The notes beneath the pieces are model-generated. The model ran no database searches and was not told the DNA's origin. It saw only the letters and a list, made by a program, of their open reading frames with translations. A program made the translations under genes and the position numbers. Shown piece by piece: positions 2,313 through 11,795 of a stretch of 30,194 nt of DNA (position 1 is its first letter; each line of letters starts with the position of its first letter). Source of the stretch: a virus; the IMG/VR virus record IMGVR_UViG_3300009136_000026, positions 1 to 30,194 of that record. One strand, 5' to 3'.

Positions 2313-2340
2313 TATACCCTTGGTTGGTTCCGGTTTGCAA
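2311..2340 (-). promoter_or_regulatory. Weak candidate leftward promoter
   Basis: On the minus strand TTGCAA (2340-2335) and TATAAA (2316-2311) are separated by 18 bases. The first matches the -35 consensus in four of six positions and the second matches the -10 in five of six. Transcription would start near 2304 and give the leftward operon a leader of almost 600 bases. The -35 falls in the palindrome GTTTGCAAAC (2333-2342). Confidence 0.25.
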
Positions 2341-2579
2341 ACATCTTTTTTATTTAATCAACGATGTGGGCGTTTAAACTGGATTATTAAGGGGGGAAAA
2401 ATGGGAACCGATAAGGGGAACAAGGGGAAATGTAGAGCCCGCGCACGAATAGGGGGTGACAGATAGGGCTAAACGATAGCGGGAACGCCCGTTAATATCG
2501 CCACCCAAAATGTGAGCAGTGTTTACATTGGGCAACCTTCCCACGCCACGCGCCACGCGTGCGCCACGCACCTACGCGC
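2321..2579. other. Non-coding sequence with no secure feature
   Basis: Only very short frames occur. One of 20 codons starts at 2401 after a good GGGGGGA site, but its repetitive Lys/Gly/Arg composition gives no support. The segment contains purine-rich runs (2390-2430) and a small CGGG/CCCG hairpin (2480-2491). I see no gene or known RNA. Confidence 0.3.
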
Positions 2580-2690
2580 GGGGGTACGGGTGTGTGTACG
2601 TGTGTGCGCCTATGCGTGTGTGTGTGGGTGTGCGCCTACGTGTACGCATGTGTGCGGGCGTGTGCGCATGTGTGCGCGCCTATGCGCGAG
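2540..2690. repeat. Alternating purine-pyrimidine GT/GC-rich low-complexity tract
   Basis: From about 2580 to 2690 the plus strand is dominated by alternating TG, CG and TA steps with imperfect repeats of a unit like GTGTGCGCCTATGCG (about 2600, 2628 and 2670). The preceding 2540-2580 repeats CGCCACG. Such alternating sequence favours Z-DNA under negative supercoiling. All three rightward frames stay open, which produces cysteine/valine-rich artefact ORFs rather than genes. It directly abuts the first GACATTCTGTCAA repeat. Confidence 0.7.
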
Positions 2691-2967
2691 GACATTCTGT
2701 CAACGGTTCTGACATTCTGTCAACGTAAAACCGGAACCGTCGGACATTCTGTCAAATCGCCAGCAAGGGGTCAAATCAAGCTCTGGAGAGGTTTGGCCTT
2801 CTTCCCCTACCCCTACCCCTGACCGAGTGCTGAAACAATTCCCGGCTTTCAACCTACCCTATCGGGCAGTCTTCCCTTTGCGCGCGCCATGCGTTGACAC
2901 GTCAAGGGGTATCATCCTCGGACAATCTGTCACAACCCACACGCCACACGTCGGACAATCTGTCACA
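2690..2967. repeat. Five spaced copies of a GACAWTCTGTCA dyad repeat
   Basis: Three copies of GACATTCTGTCAA start at 2691, 2711 and 2743. Two copies of GACAATCTGTCACA start at 2921 and 2954. Each has a small dyad, GACA-3 nt-TGTC. Start-to-start spacings are 20 and 32 bp in the first group and 33 bp in the second, near two and three helical turns. The pattern suits binding sites for a dimeric regulator or a replication initiator. A related palindrome, TTGACACGTCAA, lies at 2894-2905. The repeats are seen directly; the ligand is unknown. Confidence 0.8.
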
Positions 2968-2988
2968 CACACGCTGTATACCCCATCG

Positions 2989-3015
2989 CCCCCTTTGGGG
3001 GTGGCCTTTTGCCTT
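2989..3015 (+). terminator. Possible rightward terminator
   Basis: CCCCC-TTT-GGGGG (2989-3001) is followed by TGGCCTTTTGCCTTTTG. The stem is strong but the T-run is broken by GCC. No rightward gene lies upstream, so it may stop stray transcription before the origin-like region, or be part of it. Confidence 0.3.
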
Positions 3016-3099
3016 TTGCCATAGGAGTCCCAGAAACGCACGGCGGTTTTTCGCATATCCTCTGTTTATATTTTATAGTAGGCGTATAAACTCCACTTG

Positions 3100-3440
3100 A
3101 CATTTTCTTTACTGTCTGTAACCCTCTGTAACCTCCTTGTAACCTCAATTATTATAGTTATATACTTACTTATCTTAGATTAGGTTACAAGTTACAGAGA
3201 ATTTCACTTACGCATATAGAAAAAACAAACATAACGATTTATTCTTACCCTAATAAACAAAAAGACATTTATATTACACACATTTACTATATATATGAAC
3301 CGGACTTTTCTGTAACCTGTAATTTTAGCTCCCACCAATCCGCCATAGCTTAGGGGCAAGCTACCATAAATCGAGGTTACAGACTAGGTTACAGTAGGTT
3401 ACAGGCAGTCAACTTTCTGTAAACCCTAAAGTAACTTCTA
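3100..3440. other. Predicted replication origin: AT-rich core with GGTTACA iterons
   Basis: TGTAACC occurs at 3117, 3127 and 3138 (10-11 bp apart). The inverse GGTTACA occurs at 3183, with AGTTACA at 3190. TGTAACC recurs at 3311, and GGTTACA at 3375, 3387 and 3397 (12 and 10 bp apart). Degenerate copies lie at 3319, 3418 and 3429. The stretch 3145-3310 is very AT-rich, unlike its surroundings. Helically phased repeats around an easily melted core, beside a primase-helicase gene, are the classical layout of an iteron origin. No origin activity can be shown from sequence alone. Confidence 0.6.
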
Positions 3441-3469
3441 AGAATGCGGTGTGAGCCCCTGTATAGCAG

Positions 3470-3491
3470 CAACACACCTTATAAGGGGTTG
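3470..3491. promoter_or_regulatory. Dyad upstream of the replication promoter, possible operator
   Basis: A perfect 10-bp palindrome CCTTATAAGG (3477-3486) is flanked by CAAC (3470-3473) and GTTG (3488-3491). It ends about 20 bases before the -35 box at 3512, a suitable place for an activator or repressor site. The winged-helix protein encoded just downstream is one candidate ligand. Confidence 0.35.
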
Positions 3492-3511
3492 TAAGAAAGT
3501 GAAGAAGTAGT

Positions 3512-3540
3512 TTGACAGGTTTCCTCCACTCGCTTATACT
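3512..3540 (+). promoter_or_regulatory. Strong sigma70-type promoter for the replication genes
   Basis: TTGACA (3512-3517) is a perfect -35 and TATACT (3535-3540) a five-of-six -10, with the ideal 17-base spacer. Transcription would start near 3547, giving a leader of about 18 bases that contains the AAGGAG site (3554-3559) for the ATG at 3565. This indicates transcription by the host's housekeeping RNA polymerase. Confidence 0.85.
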
Positions 3541-3564
3541 ACCTACATTCCCCAAGGAGTAACA

Positions 3565-3894
3565 ATGTCTGCAAAAATCACCAAAACAGCGAGCTACTAC
3601 AGCTTAGAAGAGATTGCGAAGAAGCTCTCCGTCCATGTCAACACCGTTCGCAACCTAGTCAAGTCCAAGCAGCTTCCTGCCGTGAAAATGGGCGCTCAGT
3701 GGCGTGTAAACAAGCGTGACCTCGTCACCTACCTCGAAGAAAACACCAAACGCGCCTTCGAGGACCTCCCTGAGTTCCAGTGGCCAGAGCGACCCACGGC
3801 CCCTCCCACTAGGGCCACCCCCGAAGATGTCATCTACCCAGTTGACACCACCCCCTACGTTGACGAAGATGCCCTAGCCCTATTTGACGAATAA
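3565..3894 (+). CDS. Excisionase-family (MerR-like) winged-helix DNA-binding protein (109 aa)
   Basis: Residues 11-60 match the excisionase/helix_turn_helix_17 pattern: SLEEIAKKLSVHVNTVRNLV, a short wing (KQLPAVKMGAQWRVNKRDL) and a closing helix (VTYLEEN). The C-terminal half is proline- and acid-rich and probably disordered. Despite the family name, such proteins often act as transcription regulators or replication accessories. No integrase is seen here. It is the first gene after the strong promoter and 18 bp ahead of the primase-helicase, so a role at the adjacent repeats or its own promoter is likely but unproven. AAGGAG sits five bases before the ATG. Confidence 0.85.
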   Translation: MSAKITKTASYYSLEEIAKKLSVHVNTVRNLVKSKQLPAVKMGAQWRVNKRDLVTYLEENTKRAFEDLPEFQWPERPTAPPTRATPEDVIYPVDTTPYVDEDALALFDE

Positions 3895-3912
3895 CCCTCC
3901 GAGGACTCTGCT

Positions 3913-6384
3913 ATGCACCCCCCCGCAGCTAATCGCCCGGAAATCCTGGCGACCCTCCGTAGTCTTTTCACTGACGACGACATTGTTGAGCTTCGTGTGC
4001 TTTCCAAAAGCGACTACGGGGGCAAGACCCGCGCAAAGTCGGGCTATTTCAACGATCTGGAGTTGTTAGCAACAACAGCAGCAGCCTGCTCTGATGATGG
4101 CGCCACTGGTGTCTACATCACCATGAGCAAAATCAACCCCGCGCTGTTTGCCCGCAGTCCTAACCGCATCACGCAAGGGCTGCCAGCGACAAGCGACGAT
4201 GACGTCCAAGAACACACCTACCTCCTTATCGACATCGATCCAGAGCGCCCAAGTCACGTATCTGCATCGCATGCAGAGAAGAAACTCGCCGCTCAGGTGC
4301 TAAGAACCATCTATCTCAGCCTAGACGCCGAAGGTTGGCCCCAACCCATCGTCGGAGACTCGGGAAATGGGATGCACCTCGTCTACAAAGTCGGCCTTAA
4401 GCCGAATGACCCCATAATCAGGCGTTTTTACGCCGCACTTAGCCTCTTCTTCGACAGCGATGGGGTAACCATCGACCAAAAAGTCTTCAATCCAGCCCGA
4501 ATCTGGAAGCTATACGGCACTGCCGTGAGAAAAGGCGCAGATGTCGAAGACAGACCCTGGCGTTTGGCCAAGGTCCTAAAAATACCAGAAGAGTTCAAGC
4601 GGGTTCCTAAGAAACTCGTAGAACAATTCGCGAAACGCGCCCCTGAGAATCGGGGCGCCATGAATTCTGCGAAAGCTCGTCGCCTGGACCTGTGGGTCTC
4701 GGCGCATCTGCCCACCGTAGGCGATCCCATTCCGTGGGGGGATAAGGGACGGAAGTGGGTTCTCGATCAATGTCCATTTGACGAGAATCACCGTGACCGG
4801 AGCGCCTATATCGTGCAAACGCACAGCGGTGAAGTGTATGCGGGGTGCTTACACAAAGGCTGCGTTGGAAGCGGCAGGAAAGGGTGGCGAGCTTTCCAGG
4901 ATAACTTCGGTCGGCTGAATACAGCCAGCGGGGACGAGGCCGCCGCGCCTGCACAAACCGCTGGCTCTTCAGCCACCCTACCAGGGCTAACCGACCTCGG
5001 AAACGCTAAAAGACTGGTGCAGCGATTCGGTCAAGAGATCAAATACGTCCCCAGTTGGTCCAAATGGCTCAGCTACAACGGCAAACGCTGGGAACTAGAC
5101 GAGACAGGGCGCATTATGCGTCTGGCAGAAGAAGCCGTCGCCGACATATTTGGAGAAGCTGCCTCTGAGAACGATGCTGAGCGTAGCCGTAAGCTTTACA
5201 AGCACGCGGTGAAGTCAGAGTCCTCTCGTTCACTACACGCAATGGTGAGTTTGGCTTCGAGTGAGCCAGGTATGACCGTACCTATCCGTAAATTCGACTC
5301 GGACCACTGGAAGATTAACGTCTCCAACGGGACCATTGACCTGAAAACAGGTCAGTTAATGGCATTCAACAAAGAAGATAAGATAACGAAGCTCTGCCCG
5401 GTAGAATACGACACCAACGCAACGTGCCCCATCTGGGATAACTTTCTCCACGAGATTTTCGACGGTCGGATCGATCTCATCTCATTCATCTACCGCTACC
5501 TCGGCTACTCCCTCACGGGCTCAGTCCGAGAACAGAAGCTTATTTTCCTCTACGGCACCGGGGCGAACGGGAAGTCGACCTTCCTCAACACCATCCAACG
5601 CATGATGGGGACCTACTCAAAGCAAGCGGCCCCAGAGTTGCTCGTAGCCAGCAAGAGCGGACGGCACCCGACCGAGGTCGCCGACCTCATGGGCGCCCGC
5701 CTGGTTGTCAGTGCAGAGATTGACCGGGGCAAGTCCCTCGCAGAGGCCTCTATCAAGCAGATGACTGGGGGTGACCCCATCAAAGCCCGGTACATGAAGC
5801 AAGACTTCTTCGAGTTCCTACCCACCCACAAGCTTTGGTTAGCAGCAAACCACAAGCCCATAATCAAGGGCAACGACGAGGGGATTTGGCGAAGGGTACT
5901 TCTGGTTCCCTTTGAGGTCAGCATCCCAGAAGAGAAGCAAGACAAAGAGCTAGACAACAAGCTCTTCGGTGAGCTTCCCGGCATTATGAACCGGCTGGTA
6001 GCAGGGTGCCTTGATTGGCAACGCAACGGACTGAACCCCCCCGATTCAGTGGCCTATGCCACCCAAGAGTACCGCGAAGAGCTTGACCCGATGAAGCCCT
6101 TTTTCCTAGACCGTTGTGAGCTTGACTCGGAGCACTCGATTAACCCGAAGAACCTGTACAATGCCTACATCGACTGGTGTGAAGAGAGCCACGAGCGCGC
6201 AATGAACCCACGCTTCTTTGCAATGCTCATGAGGGAGCGAAACTTCAGGCAGGGTAAGCCCTCGAAGAAAGGTTCTGCCACCACCTACCGCCCTTGGCTG
6301 GGTATTAAGCTCCGAGGCGATACTCCAATTAGCCCGCGTGACTTAGGTCAGCTAATCACCGTCGAGAAGTGGAATGAAAGCTGA
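3913..6384 (+). CDS. P4/D5-type primase-helicase (823 aa)
   Basis: The N-terminal region looks like an archaeo-eukaryotic primase fold: metal-binding LLIDIDPERP (Asp107, Asp109), then SGNGMHLVYKV (150-160) and IWKLYGTAVRKG (197-208). Next is a putative zinc site (Cys287, His293, Cys312, His314, Cys317), a D5_N-like helical region (about 370-540), and a superfamily 3 helicase with Walker A GTGANGKST (548-556), Walker B LVVSAEID (597-604), a sensor motif LWLAANHKP (641-649) and the arginine stretch GIWRRVLLVPF (657-667). Such enzymes prime and unwind DNA at phage and plasmid origins. It sits about 500 bp from the iteron-like region. The start has GAGG eight bases upstream. Length is typical of the family. 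Confidence 0.93.
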   Translation: MHPPAANRPEILATLRSLFTDDDIVELRVLSKSDYGGKTRAKSGYFNDLELLATTAAACSDDGATGVYITMSKINPALFARSPNRITQGLPATSDDDVQEHTYLLIDIDPERPSHVSASHAEKKLAAQVLRTIYLSLDAEGWPQPIVGDSGNGMHLVYKVGLKPNDPIIRRFYAALSLFFDSDGVTIDQKVFNPARIWKLYGTAVRKGADVEDRPWRLAKVLKIPEEFKRVPKKLVEQFAKRAPENRGAMNSAKARRLDLWVSAHLPTVGDPIPWGDKGRKWVLDQCPFDENHRDRSAYIVQTHSGEVYAGCLHKGCVGSGRKGWRAFQDNFGRLNTASGDEAAAPAQTAGSSATLPGLTDLGNAKRLVQRFGQEIKYVPSWSKWLSYNGKRWELDETGRIMRLAEEAVADIFGEAASENDAERSRKLYKHAVKSESSRSLHAMVSLASSEPGMTVPIRKFDSDHWKINVSNGTIDLKTGQLMAFNKEDKITKLCPVEYDTNATCPIWDNFLHEIFDGRIDLISFIYRYLGYSLTGSVREQKLIFLYGTGANGKSTFLNTIQRMMGTYSKQAAPELLVASKSGRHPTEVADLMGARLVVSAEIDRGKSLAEASIKQMTGGDPIKARYMKQDFFEFLPTHKLWLAANHKPIIKGNDEGIWRRVLLVPFEVSIPEEKQDKELDNKLFGELPGIMNRLVAGCLDWQRNGLNPPDSVAYATQEYREELDPMKPFFLDRCELDSEHSINPKNLYNAYIDWCEESHERAMNPRFFAMLMRERNFRQGKPSKKGSATTYRPWLGIKLRGDTPISPRDLGQLITVEKWNES

Positions 6385-9351: not shown

Positions 9352-11795
9352 TGTCATCCATAGCAGACGCCCGTAAGATAGCTGCAATGAGAGCTATGGC
9401 CGGGAAAGAGTTTGAAGATCCCGAGGCGTTGGCTCAGATGACTGCGCGAGCAAGCGGGACCAAGGTCCCCTTACCAGAGCGGCCTATCGGACAGCAGGTT
9501 GAGCAAGAGCTTGCAGCAGCGCCACCAGAGCCACGAGAAGGTGACTCAATTATGTCCCAAGAGGGGCGCCTCAAGGAAGTGGGGGCCACTGGGATGGTTC
9601 CTGCGGCACGTAGGGTAGCGGCACAGAGGGCTTTTCTGAAAGATGCCTCGCCCTGGGGTAGTGCGGAGATGGCCTATGAGGGCGGGAAAAAGGTTGTATC
9701 GGGTGTAAAAGAAGGCTCACCTAAAAAAGTAGCCATCGGAGCCGCCCAGGGGGCTGCTGGTACGGGGATGTTGGGGCTCGACATGGCGGGGCTGGGTCTC
9801 CTTACCACAGGGACAGGCCCACTGCTTAGGTCAAAGCTCGCAGAAGCGGTGGCTTCGCTGAAACCAGGGCAGAAAATAGCCACCCAAGGCTTAAGGGCTG
9901 AACTGACGAAGCGGGGAGTAAGAAAGCCCGAGATGAACGCCACTCAGCTAGACAGCTTGGTCAAGGCAGCAGAAGAGCGTGGGCAGAAGAGCATTTCAAA
10001 AGAGGAGATCCTTGAGCACATCGAGGAGACTCCTGTCGGCATTACCGAGATTGCGAGAGGGCGCCTCCCTGAGACCCCCGAGATGAACGCCCTTGCAGAT
10101 GAGATGGGTTATGCCTGGCACGGGGGCGCCGATGAGCTACTCGACAAACTGAGCATACCTACCCCTGACGCTCCAACCGGGTCCTTAAAGTATGCTGGCT
10201 CCATCGGCACCCCTGGGTACACGGCCGAAAACCTCGATTGGAATCAGATTAAGGAATCCCCTGAGAAACTGGCCCGAATCTGGCCGGAAGGCTGGGAGAA
10301 GTGGTACCCTGAGATGCAAGACCCTATCCTAGATTTTATAGAAAGCGACACGAGGAAGCGCCCGGCCCTTAAGGCGTTAGATACCCTAATCAGCCATCAT
10401 GAACATGCCAGAGCCCCGAGCCCGTATATTCCCGCACAGTTATTACGGGAAGCAGGAGAGGAATTGGGCGCTATGGTGGCGCAGGGACTCGAAGGTCATC
10501 GCATCGTCGACGGAAAGCGCAAGAGCATATTACCGGCCTCAACCAGGCACGCGATTCCCAACCAGCCGAACAGCCTGGGACAGGATGTGATCGAACAGGA
10601 CGCGATTCAGGTAACGGGCCTGATGGATAAGGCCCTAGAAGGCCTTAGGAAGTATCGAGAAGCGGCACAGGACGTGATTGCCCGAGAAGGGGATATTGGC
10701 TTGTTTGACCTAAAAGCGGTAGACCAAGTACTTGGGTATTATGCGGATTGGCCCGCGTATAAGGCGAAGCTCTTAGCGCACAGTAAGGTTTTAGACGAGA
10801 TTAGGGGCGACCCCGCTTGGCAAAAGTATGTAGACGCCAATAAGCGCCTCAAAGAGGCAAAGGGCGCCCTAGAAGGGAGACCAACACGCTGGGAACACAT
10901 GGCAGCACATGCCCCAGGGGGAGAGAACTATGGAGAGACAACTCTTCATCTTGAGACTAAAGCACTAAAAGATGACCCCTTTGAGTCATCCCACTGGGCC
11001 GAAGACAACGCTGTGGTCCACTTCCGGCATACAGATAGGATTGACGAGCAGGGACGTAGGATTTTGTTTGTGGATGAGATTCAGTCCGACTTGCACCAGC
11101 AGGGGAGGCTACGCGGCTATTCCCCCGAAGAGAACTTCGCTATACGGGAGAATTTAGAGGATCAAATTAAAACTCTAGAGGATGACCTACGGCGAAACGA
11201 AGCCCGTCGCCTCAAACTGGGCCCTTTTAAAGAGAGAGGCAAGAGAGGGTATCTGGCGCAGGAGTGGATGTTGATAGATTCAACGCTCCTCTCCCCCAAG
11301 GATGTCGAGATCCTCAAAGAAAAGCTCAACAAAGCAGAGGTTCGGCTTTCAACAGCGAATCGAGGGCCTGTGCCCGAGGGTATGTTCAAAGGGACGAAAG
11401 AGTGGACAGGGCTTGCGCTAAAGAGGATCATGCGTAAAGCAGCAGAAGAAGGCTATCAGGGCGTTGCGTTTACACGGGGCAAAGACGCCATGAAATATAG
11501 CTATATGAAGCCCGAGGGAGCGTATTACTATGACACAATCGTCCCCAGTGTGGCAGCGAAGATAGCGGCACCCAAAGGTGTCTCTAAAGCCAAGATAGAG
11601 AAGACTAAAATTGCCATCCCCCAGGCTCCAGACGAGGTTACTTTAGAGGCGTTCCCTGTAGTCTGGTTAACCGATGCAGTTAAAGGTAGAGCGATGCTCC
11701 CTTATGATAAGTTCGCAACCGTGTTAGCAGCAGGCGCATCGGGCGCAGCAGGAGCTAAAGCATTACAAGATCGCAAAGGCGAAGAGGAACAGTAG
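9351..11795 (+). CDS. Large polyvalent-type phage protein between terminase and portal (814 aa)
   Basis: Starts at the TAATG junction with terL after a strong GGAGGAGG site. Residues about 555-590 hold HFRHTDRIDEQGRRILFVDE then IQSDLHQQGRLRGY. Later come LALKRIMRKAAEEGYQGVAF (about 688-707) and YYYDTIVPSVAAKIA (about 725-740). This pattern is familiar from multidomain phage proteins of the 'large polyvalent protein' type, which can be injected with DNA. Near residue 250, MGYAWHGGADELLDKL faintly resembles the YHGT entry motif of ADP-ribosyltransferase-like domains. An N-terminal Ala/Gly-rich stretch (about 110-150, KKVAIGAAQGAAGTGMLGLD) may be membrane-active. Function is unproven; it may be an internal virion effector. 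Confidence 0.75.
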   Translation: MSSIADARKIAAMRAMAGKEFEDPEALAQMTARASGTKVPLPERPIGQQVEQELAAAPPEPREGDSIMSQEGRLKEVGATGMVPAARRVAAQRAFLKDASPWGSAEMAYEGGKKVVSGVKEGSPKKVAIGAAQGAAGTGMLGLDMAGLGLLTTGTGPLLRSKLAEAVASLKPGQKIATQGLRAELTKRGVRKPEMNATQLDSLVKAAEERGQKSISKEEILEHIEETPVGITEIARGRLPETPEMNALADEMGYAWHGGADELLDKLSIPTPDAPTGSLKYAGSIGTPGYTAENLDWNQIKESPEKLARIWPEGWEKWYPEMQDPILDFIESDTRKRPALKALDTLISHHEHARAPSPYIPAQLLREAGEELGAMVAQGLEGHRIVDGKRKSILPASTRHAIPNQPNSLGQDVIEQDAIQVTGLMDKALEGLRKYREAAQDVIAREGDIGLFDLKAVDQVLGYYADWPAYKAKLLAHSKVLDEIRGDPAWQKYVDANKRLKEAKGALEGRPTRWEHMAAHAPGGENYGETTLHLETKALKDDPFESSHWAEDNAVVHFRHTDRIDEQGRRILFVDEIQSDLHQQGRLRGYSPEENFAIRENLEDQIKTLEDDLRRNEARRLKLGPFKERGKRGYLAQEWMLIDSTLLSPKDVEILKEKLNKAEVRLSTANRGPVPEGMFKGTKEWTGLALKRIMRKAAEEGYQGVAFTRGKDAMKYSYMKPEGAYYYDTIVPSVAAKIAAPKGVSKAKIEKTKIAIPQAPDEVTLEAFPVVWLTDAVKGRAMLPYDKFATVLAAGASGAAGAKALQDRKGEEEQ

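Follow-up and report, generated by a model that had tools for sequence, protein, structure and literature searches.

A mirrored array of GGTTACA iterons as a probable replication origin, and a P4-family primase-helicase as its likely reader, in an uncultured phage

Clusters of short repeats beside a primase-helicase gene raise the question of whether they form a replication origin and, if so, which protein recognises them. We addressed this question for positions 3100-3440 of the IMG/VR record IMGVR_UViG_3300009136_000026, analysed over its full length of 30,194 bp (hereafter, the window), which represents one whole virus record and possibly a fragment of the genome. Because a terminase and matches to P22/SU10-like portal and adaptor proteins are found in the record, we assign it, on the basis of these gene matches, to a tailed phage.

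The first-pass annotation of this region had described at least eight exact copies of GGTTACA or TGTAACC, arranged in opposing groups with 10-12 bp spacing around an AT-rich stretch and lying within 500 bp of a primase-helicase gene, and this description was borne out. Exactly eight exact sites occur in the 30,194-bp record, all inside 3117-3403 (287 bp): on the minus strand at 3117, 3127, 3138 and 3311, and on the plus strand at 3183, 3375, 3387 and 3397. Sites with one mismatch are present at 3190 (AGTTACA, directly abutting the site at 3183) and at 3418. Once near-matches are added, ten sites over 290 bp draw a full mirror, R3-F2-[AT core]-R2-F3. Specifically, the left outer cluster R3 (3117-3144, minus strand) holds three TGTAACC sites with start-to-start steps of 10 and 11 bp, while the right outer cluster F3 (3375-3403, plus strand) holds three GGTTACA sites with steps of 12 and 10 bp. 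The inner pairs are both stepped by 7 bp: F2 (3183-3196, plus strand) joins GGTTACA to AGTTACA, and R2 (3311-3324, minus strand) is made of TGTAACC followed by a degenerate TGTAATT at 3318. In addition, a 27-nt inverted repeat (85%) pairs 3108-3134 with 3386-3412; its right arm includes the conserved GGCAGTCAA that follows F3 (3404-3412, plus strand), an approximate mirror image of which, TTGAC/TTTAC-n-TGTAACC, precedes R3.

No 7-mer of any kind exceeded four copies per 300 bp in 100 resamplings matched to the local composition, against the eight of GGTTACA in the real sequence, and chance clustering of this motif is therefore excluded. When 3100-3440 was resampled 2000 times, GGTTACA itself occurred at most twice. 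The core between the inner pairs (3197-3310) is 73.7% AT, compared to 46.3% for the whole record, and belongs to the most AT-rich DNA that the record contains: all 114-bp stretches with at least 68% AT start in the array region. We regard this core, whose sequence is not conserved among relatives, as the putative melting region (DUE).

The array ends at 3403, 510 bp before the primase-helicase ATG at 3913, slightly more than the distance first annotated. It is intergenic, between leftward genes and a rightward operon, and the gene order is fixed: the array is followed by the gene for an HTH_17/excisionase-family small DNA-binding protein of 109 aa (3565-3894, plus strand) and by that for a P4-family (D5/SF3) primase-helicase of 823 aa (3913-6384, plus strand). 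The operon is preceded by a sigma-70-like promoter, TTGACA-17-TATACT (3512-3540, plus strand, 11/12 matches). Such an intergenic position with a strong promoter close by would suit operators or activator sites that control the HTH/primase operon or the leftward genes, with no origin involved. We consider this very unlikely: the promoter and the iterons do not overlap, ten sites over 290 bp mirrored round an AT-rich core exceed operator practice, and in two other contigs (L072 and L080) the same arrays sit 3' of helicase genes.

A search for the repeat in related phage genomes, which had been suggested as a check, recovered the same array layout, with almost all spacings conserved, at ten viral loci, nine of them independent relatives (L002 and L003 are near-identical), whose primases are 64-92% identical. 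The F3 steps of 12 and 10 bp are kept in all relatives, and all 21 bases of its three sites (21/21) are invariant in an 11-sequence alignment. The F2 pair is likewise kept in all relatives as (A/G)GTTACA(A/G)GTTACA; at R2 they retain TGTAAC(C/T)TGTA or TGTAACCTGTG, and F3 follows R2 at a distance of 64 bp in most of them. At least the two inner sites of R3 are present in 10/10 aligned relatives, the first R site being replaced in some by an additional GGTTACA at the extreme left. The DNA between sites is not conserved, while almost all spacings are. In six relatives, with records of 36-56 kb, the GGTTACA array is the sole dense cluster. Because the layout has persisted in nine independent relatives despite divergence of the DNA between the sites, we conclude from this alignment that the iteron sites are under selection. 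A blastn search of the array region against phages and plasmids returned matches solely in the primase coding region, and a literature search for the GGTTACA motif found no phage origin paper. The conserved layout, the fixed synteny and the similar layouts in the phages named below strongly support the annotated reading as an iteron-type origin.

As for other origin markers, the annotated lack of a classical Rep nearby was confirmed, no Rep family being found among the scanned proteins of the record, and the DnaA box (TTWTNCACA) is absent throughout the 30,194 bp. GC skew, which had been put forward as a check, was uninformative: in four of the five genomes the cumulative minimum falls 1-5 kb away from the array, roughly at the switch in gene direction, and a sharp inversion at the array was not seen. 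With the minimum near but off the array in most genomes, and confounded by gene direction, GC skew was set aside as an origin marker.

A second repeat family lies between the array and the leftward genes, at 2691-2965, where five copies of GACA(A/T)TCTGTCA (dyad GACA-NNN-TGTC) are found and none is expected by chance. Nearly all relatives are without it (L003 has three copies), and for this reason GACAWTCTGTCA (x5) was set aside as a part of the origin; these dyads are possibly operators. Upstream of them, a GT/GC-rich imperfect repeat tract (TGTGTGCGCCTATGCG...) spans 2580-2690. Further to the left, the minus strand encodes at 1418-1804 a FliS-like protein (flagellin chaperones; PF02561, score 38.6 bits, cutoff 26.7), matched among the checked relatives in L001 only, at 38% identity.

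With regard to the protein that reads the repeats, the annotation had left the choice open between the small DNA-binding protein and the primase-helicase. The latter scores 335.2 bits against TIGR01613 (primase_Cterm; curated cutoff 108.7), which places it in the P4 family, and 122 bits against D5_N (PF08706), with the Walker A motif GTGANGKST of an SF3 core. Its predicted domains are an AEP-like N-terminus, a D5_N/SF3 helicase and, at the C-terminus, a winged helix of the RFX type (roughly residues 725-803); at full length, it matches AsfvPrimPol and primase-helicases of the poxvirus D5 type. A model of the last 159 residues had a mean pLDDT of 74, the winged-helix part being mostly at 85-91. 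The best fold matches of this model are the RFX DNA-binding domain (Z 9.8), the AsfvPrimPol C-terminus (Z 8.0) and the P4 origin-binding domain (1ka8), the last with a Z of 7.4 that is too low to exclude a merely common fold. Winged-helix identity is 59-99% in GGTTACA carriers, compared to 29-39% in relatives without GGTTACA, with L164 and L186 deviating: these two carry GGTTACA and a winged helix resembling the one in L024. When they are compared to L024 and L026, the recognition helices are similar and it is mainly the wing that differs.

These four contigs also document a change of repeat among close relatives. The helicase cores of L024 and L026 are 75-80% identical to those of L164 and L186; the repeats are GGTTACA in L164 and L186, and TTTGTGG and ACTACG in L024 and L026, where mirrored arrays with an AT-rich core lie 5' of the same two genes (L024, 620-1000; L026, 870-1170). 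A mirrored array upstream of the same two genes is found in L021 as well (3640-3960), and the repeats of L017, L019 and L021 are of the CGAGGAC type. Judged from these comparisons, this is iteron swapping on a conserved scaffold.

GGTTACA arrays extend beyond the close relatives. At least 120 stretches with GGTTACA triplets were found in viral contigs, against 38 for a reversed-motif control, almost none of them mirrored. Among the matches listed, two or more opposite copies within 400 bp were present at 61/106 non-redundant loci, compared to 2/33 controls (Fisher p 5e-8), and the big ORFs adjoining the arrays, again among the matches listed, include ones that are VapE-like, DUF5906/D5, DUF927 with Cch HTH_56, Toprim-AAA, Prim-Pol, AAA_25 and NrS-1-polymerase-like. 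Clear replication proteins accompany 12 of 20 hand-picked array loci and 2 of 10 controls; the control exceptions, L212 and L227, carry reversed-motif arrays near primase genes, and the reversed motif may be the iteron there. The F3 pattern occurs in seven bacterial genome contigs as well; in one of them, from Clostridium brassicae (L080), the array directly adjoins a Toprim-AAA protein. In L066 a GGTTACA array (10510-10720) lies within the 3' end of a Prim-Pol/AAA_25 ORF, so that coding sequence and iterons overlap. A separate observation on these contigs concerns L114, in which an intein interrupts the terminase large subunit (2316-4487, minus strand).

Packaging, attachment and partition elements can also hold short repeated sites, and the array could be a packaging, recombination/attachment or partition site, although none of the present results points to such a role. 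The array is, however, syntenic with the primase-helicase and not with an integrase, parA or terminase, and arrays in other elements accompany replication genes, which makes such a function extremely improbable.

The same survey bears on the small protein. The array could be an origin, or part of one, at which the HTH_17 protein binds the iterons and recruits the primase-helicase, in the manner of lambda O or P1 RepA. Its HTH_17/excisionase score is good, and its gene is located between the array and that for the primase in those relatives whose contigs reach far enough, and likewise in L017, L019, L024, L026, L164 and L186. Nevertheless, the recognition helix varies among GGTTACA carriers, reading VHVNTVRNLV in the window and VSERTVQRLI in L164, and is shared by L024 and L026, which have other repeats. 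Furthermore, HTH_17 is restricted to the D5 clade: where GGTTACA arrays stand by VapE, Cch, Toprim-AAA or Prim-Pol genes, a relative of it is absent from the fetched partial contigs, a weak match in L080 excepted. We therefore hold iteron binding by the HTH_17 protein to be unlikely. Since arrays stand beside other primase-helicases without HTH_17, and since its recognition helix does not track the repeat, the primase-helicase is, on these comparisons, the likelier iteron binder; of the two candidates first annotated, its C-terminal winged helix is favoured.

All together, these data suggest that 3100-3440 is very probably a replication origin whose iterons are bound by the phage's own P4-family primase-helicase. 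We infer iteron binding, oligomer state, melting, direction and the start of replication as follows. The primase-helicase (3913-6384) would bind the GGTTACA iterons via its C-terminal RFX/P4-alpha-type winged helix and assemble, most likely as two head-to-head hexamers, on the two mirrored sets, of which one is made up of R3 and F2 and the other of R2 and F3. The in-phase outer clusters would bend the DNA, and this bending, together with the assembly, would melt the AT-rich core of 114 bp that separates the inner pairs, so that each strand receives one helicase ring. The AEP-type N-terminal domain would then prime bidirectional, DnaA-free theta replication, with the HTH_17 protein more likely acting as an operon regulator or accessory factor than as the iteron binder.

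A broader reading, which we put forward tentatively and as more doubtful than the origin itself, is that GGTTACA represents a portable origin code: a mirrored 7-bp iteron read by several initiator-helicase superfamilies (D5/P4, VapE, Cch/DUF927, Toprim-AAA and Prim-Pol/AAA_25) in phages, satellites and bacterial elements, with relatives swapping the iteron and keeping the layout. Such recognition could rest on a common C-terminal winged-helix type or on convergence and, if true, an iteron swap on a kept layout would create compatibility groups. As for the locus itself, the analysis locates a putative origin, together with its likely initiator, in a phage lineage that is uncultured. Because the iterons differ between closely related members and the scaffold stays the same, the family offers a ready system for studying how RFX/P4-type winged helices read DNA; it also lends itself to tracing the evolution of origin specificity between phages and their parasitic satellites.

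Mirrored sites about an easily melted stretch recur in many viruses and satellites with this kind of enzyme. Among known systems, a close likeness is to PICI/SaPI origins, in which two iteron sets surround an AT-rich region (PMC6092414) beside a primase/helicase initiator. In 2018 this design was said to be common to PICIs and to no other known bacterial replicon (PMC6092414); the present data suggest that it extends to tailed phages with P4-family primases. The initiator helicases of SaPI and SCCmec bind iterons through C-terminal domains, as was demonstrated biochemically for Cch2 (PMC7581432), and we propose the same for the primase-helicase. Unlike PICI/SaPI origins, the array lies 5' of the operon and not directly 3' of rep, inner pairs with a 7-bp step accompany the outer GGTTACA triplets, and the replicon is a tailed phage that encodes a terminase and a portal of its own. 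SCCmec shares the presumed use of the C-terminal domain and differs in its MCM-like Cch2 and AAGTG iterons, a mirrored double set not being described there. Classical iteron plasmids (Rep_3/RepA type) differ in having a Rep gene near the iterons, absent here among the scanned ORFs, and DnaA boxes.

The P4 alpha/ori-crr replicon (NC_001609; 1ka8) shares a P4-family primase-helicase with a C-terminal winged helix, predicted here, and short iterons in both orientations. The P4 iteron CTGTTCACC and that of the window, CTGTAACC, differ in the middle, and the former is one base longer; the GGTGAACAG type I iterons of P4 are absent here, where the sites are GGTTACA(G). In addition, P4 has two separate cis sites, ori and crr, compared to one cluster in this 30-kb, possibly incomplete record. 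A clear array of the inverted-iteron kind was not seen in Wrath, Percival, AbbeyMikolon or Methanoculleus L4768. Inverted iteron clusters about an AT-rich core by a P4-family primase are found in Lactobacillus phage A2 (AJ251789), inside the annotated rep_origin, and in Bacillus phage phi105; their iterons, ACGGGAGG and AAGTAACA, respectively, are not GGTTACA, and both arrays lie just 3' of the primase gene. Marcoliusprime (AGGGACGG) and Listeria FHC15313 (CAGGGCA) likewise carry inverted clusters round an AT-rich core just 3' of a P4-family primase, while in Streptomyces plasmid pSVL1 a GTCGCT array lies upstream of a Prim-Pol/primase pair. In conclusion, the layout and the protein family were already known; what is new is the iteron, its location upstream and the lineage of phages in which it occurs.
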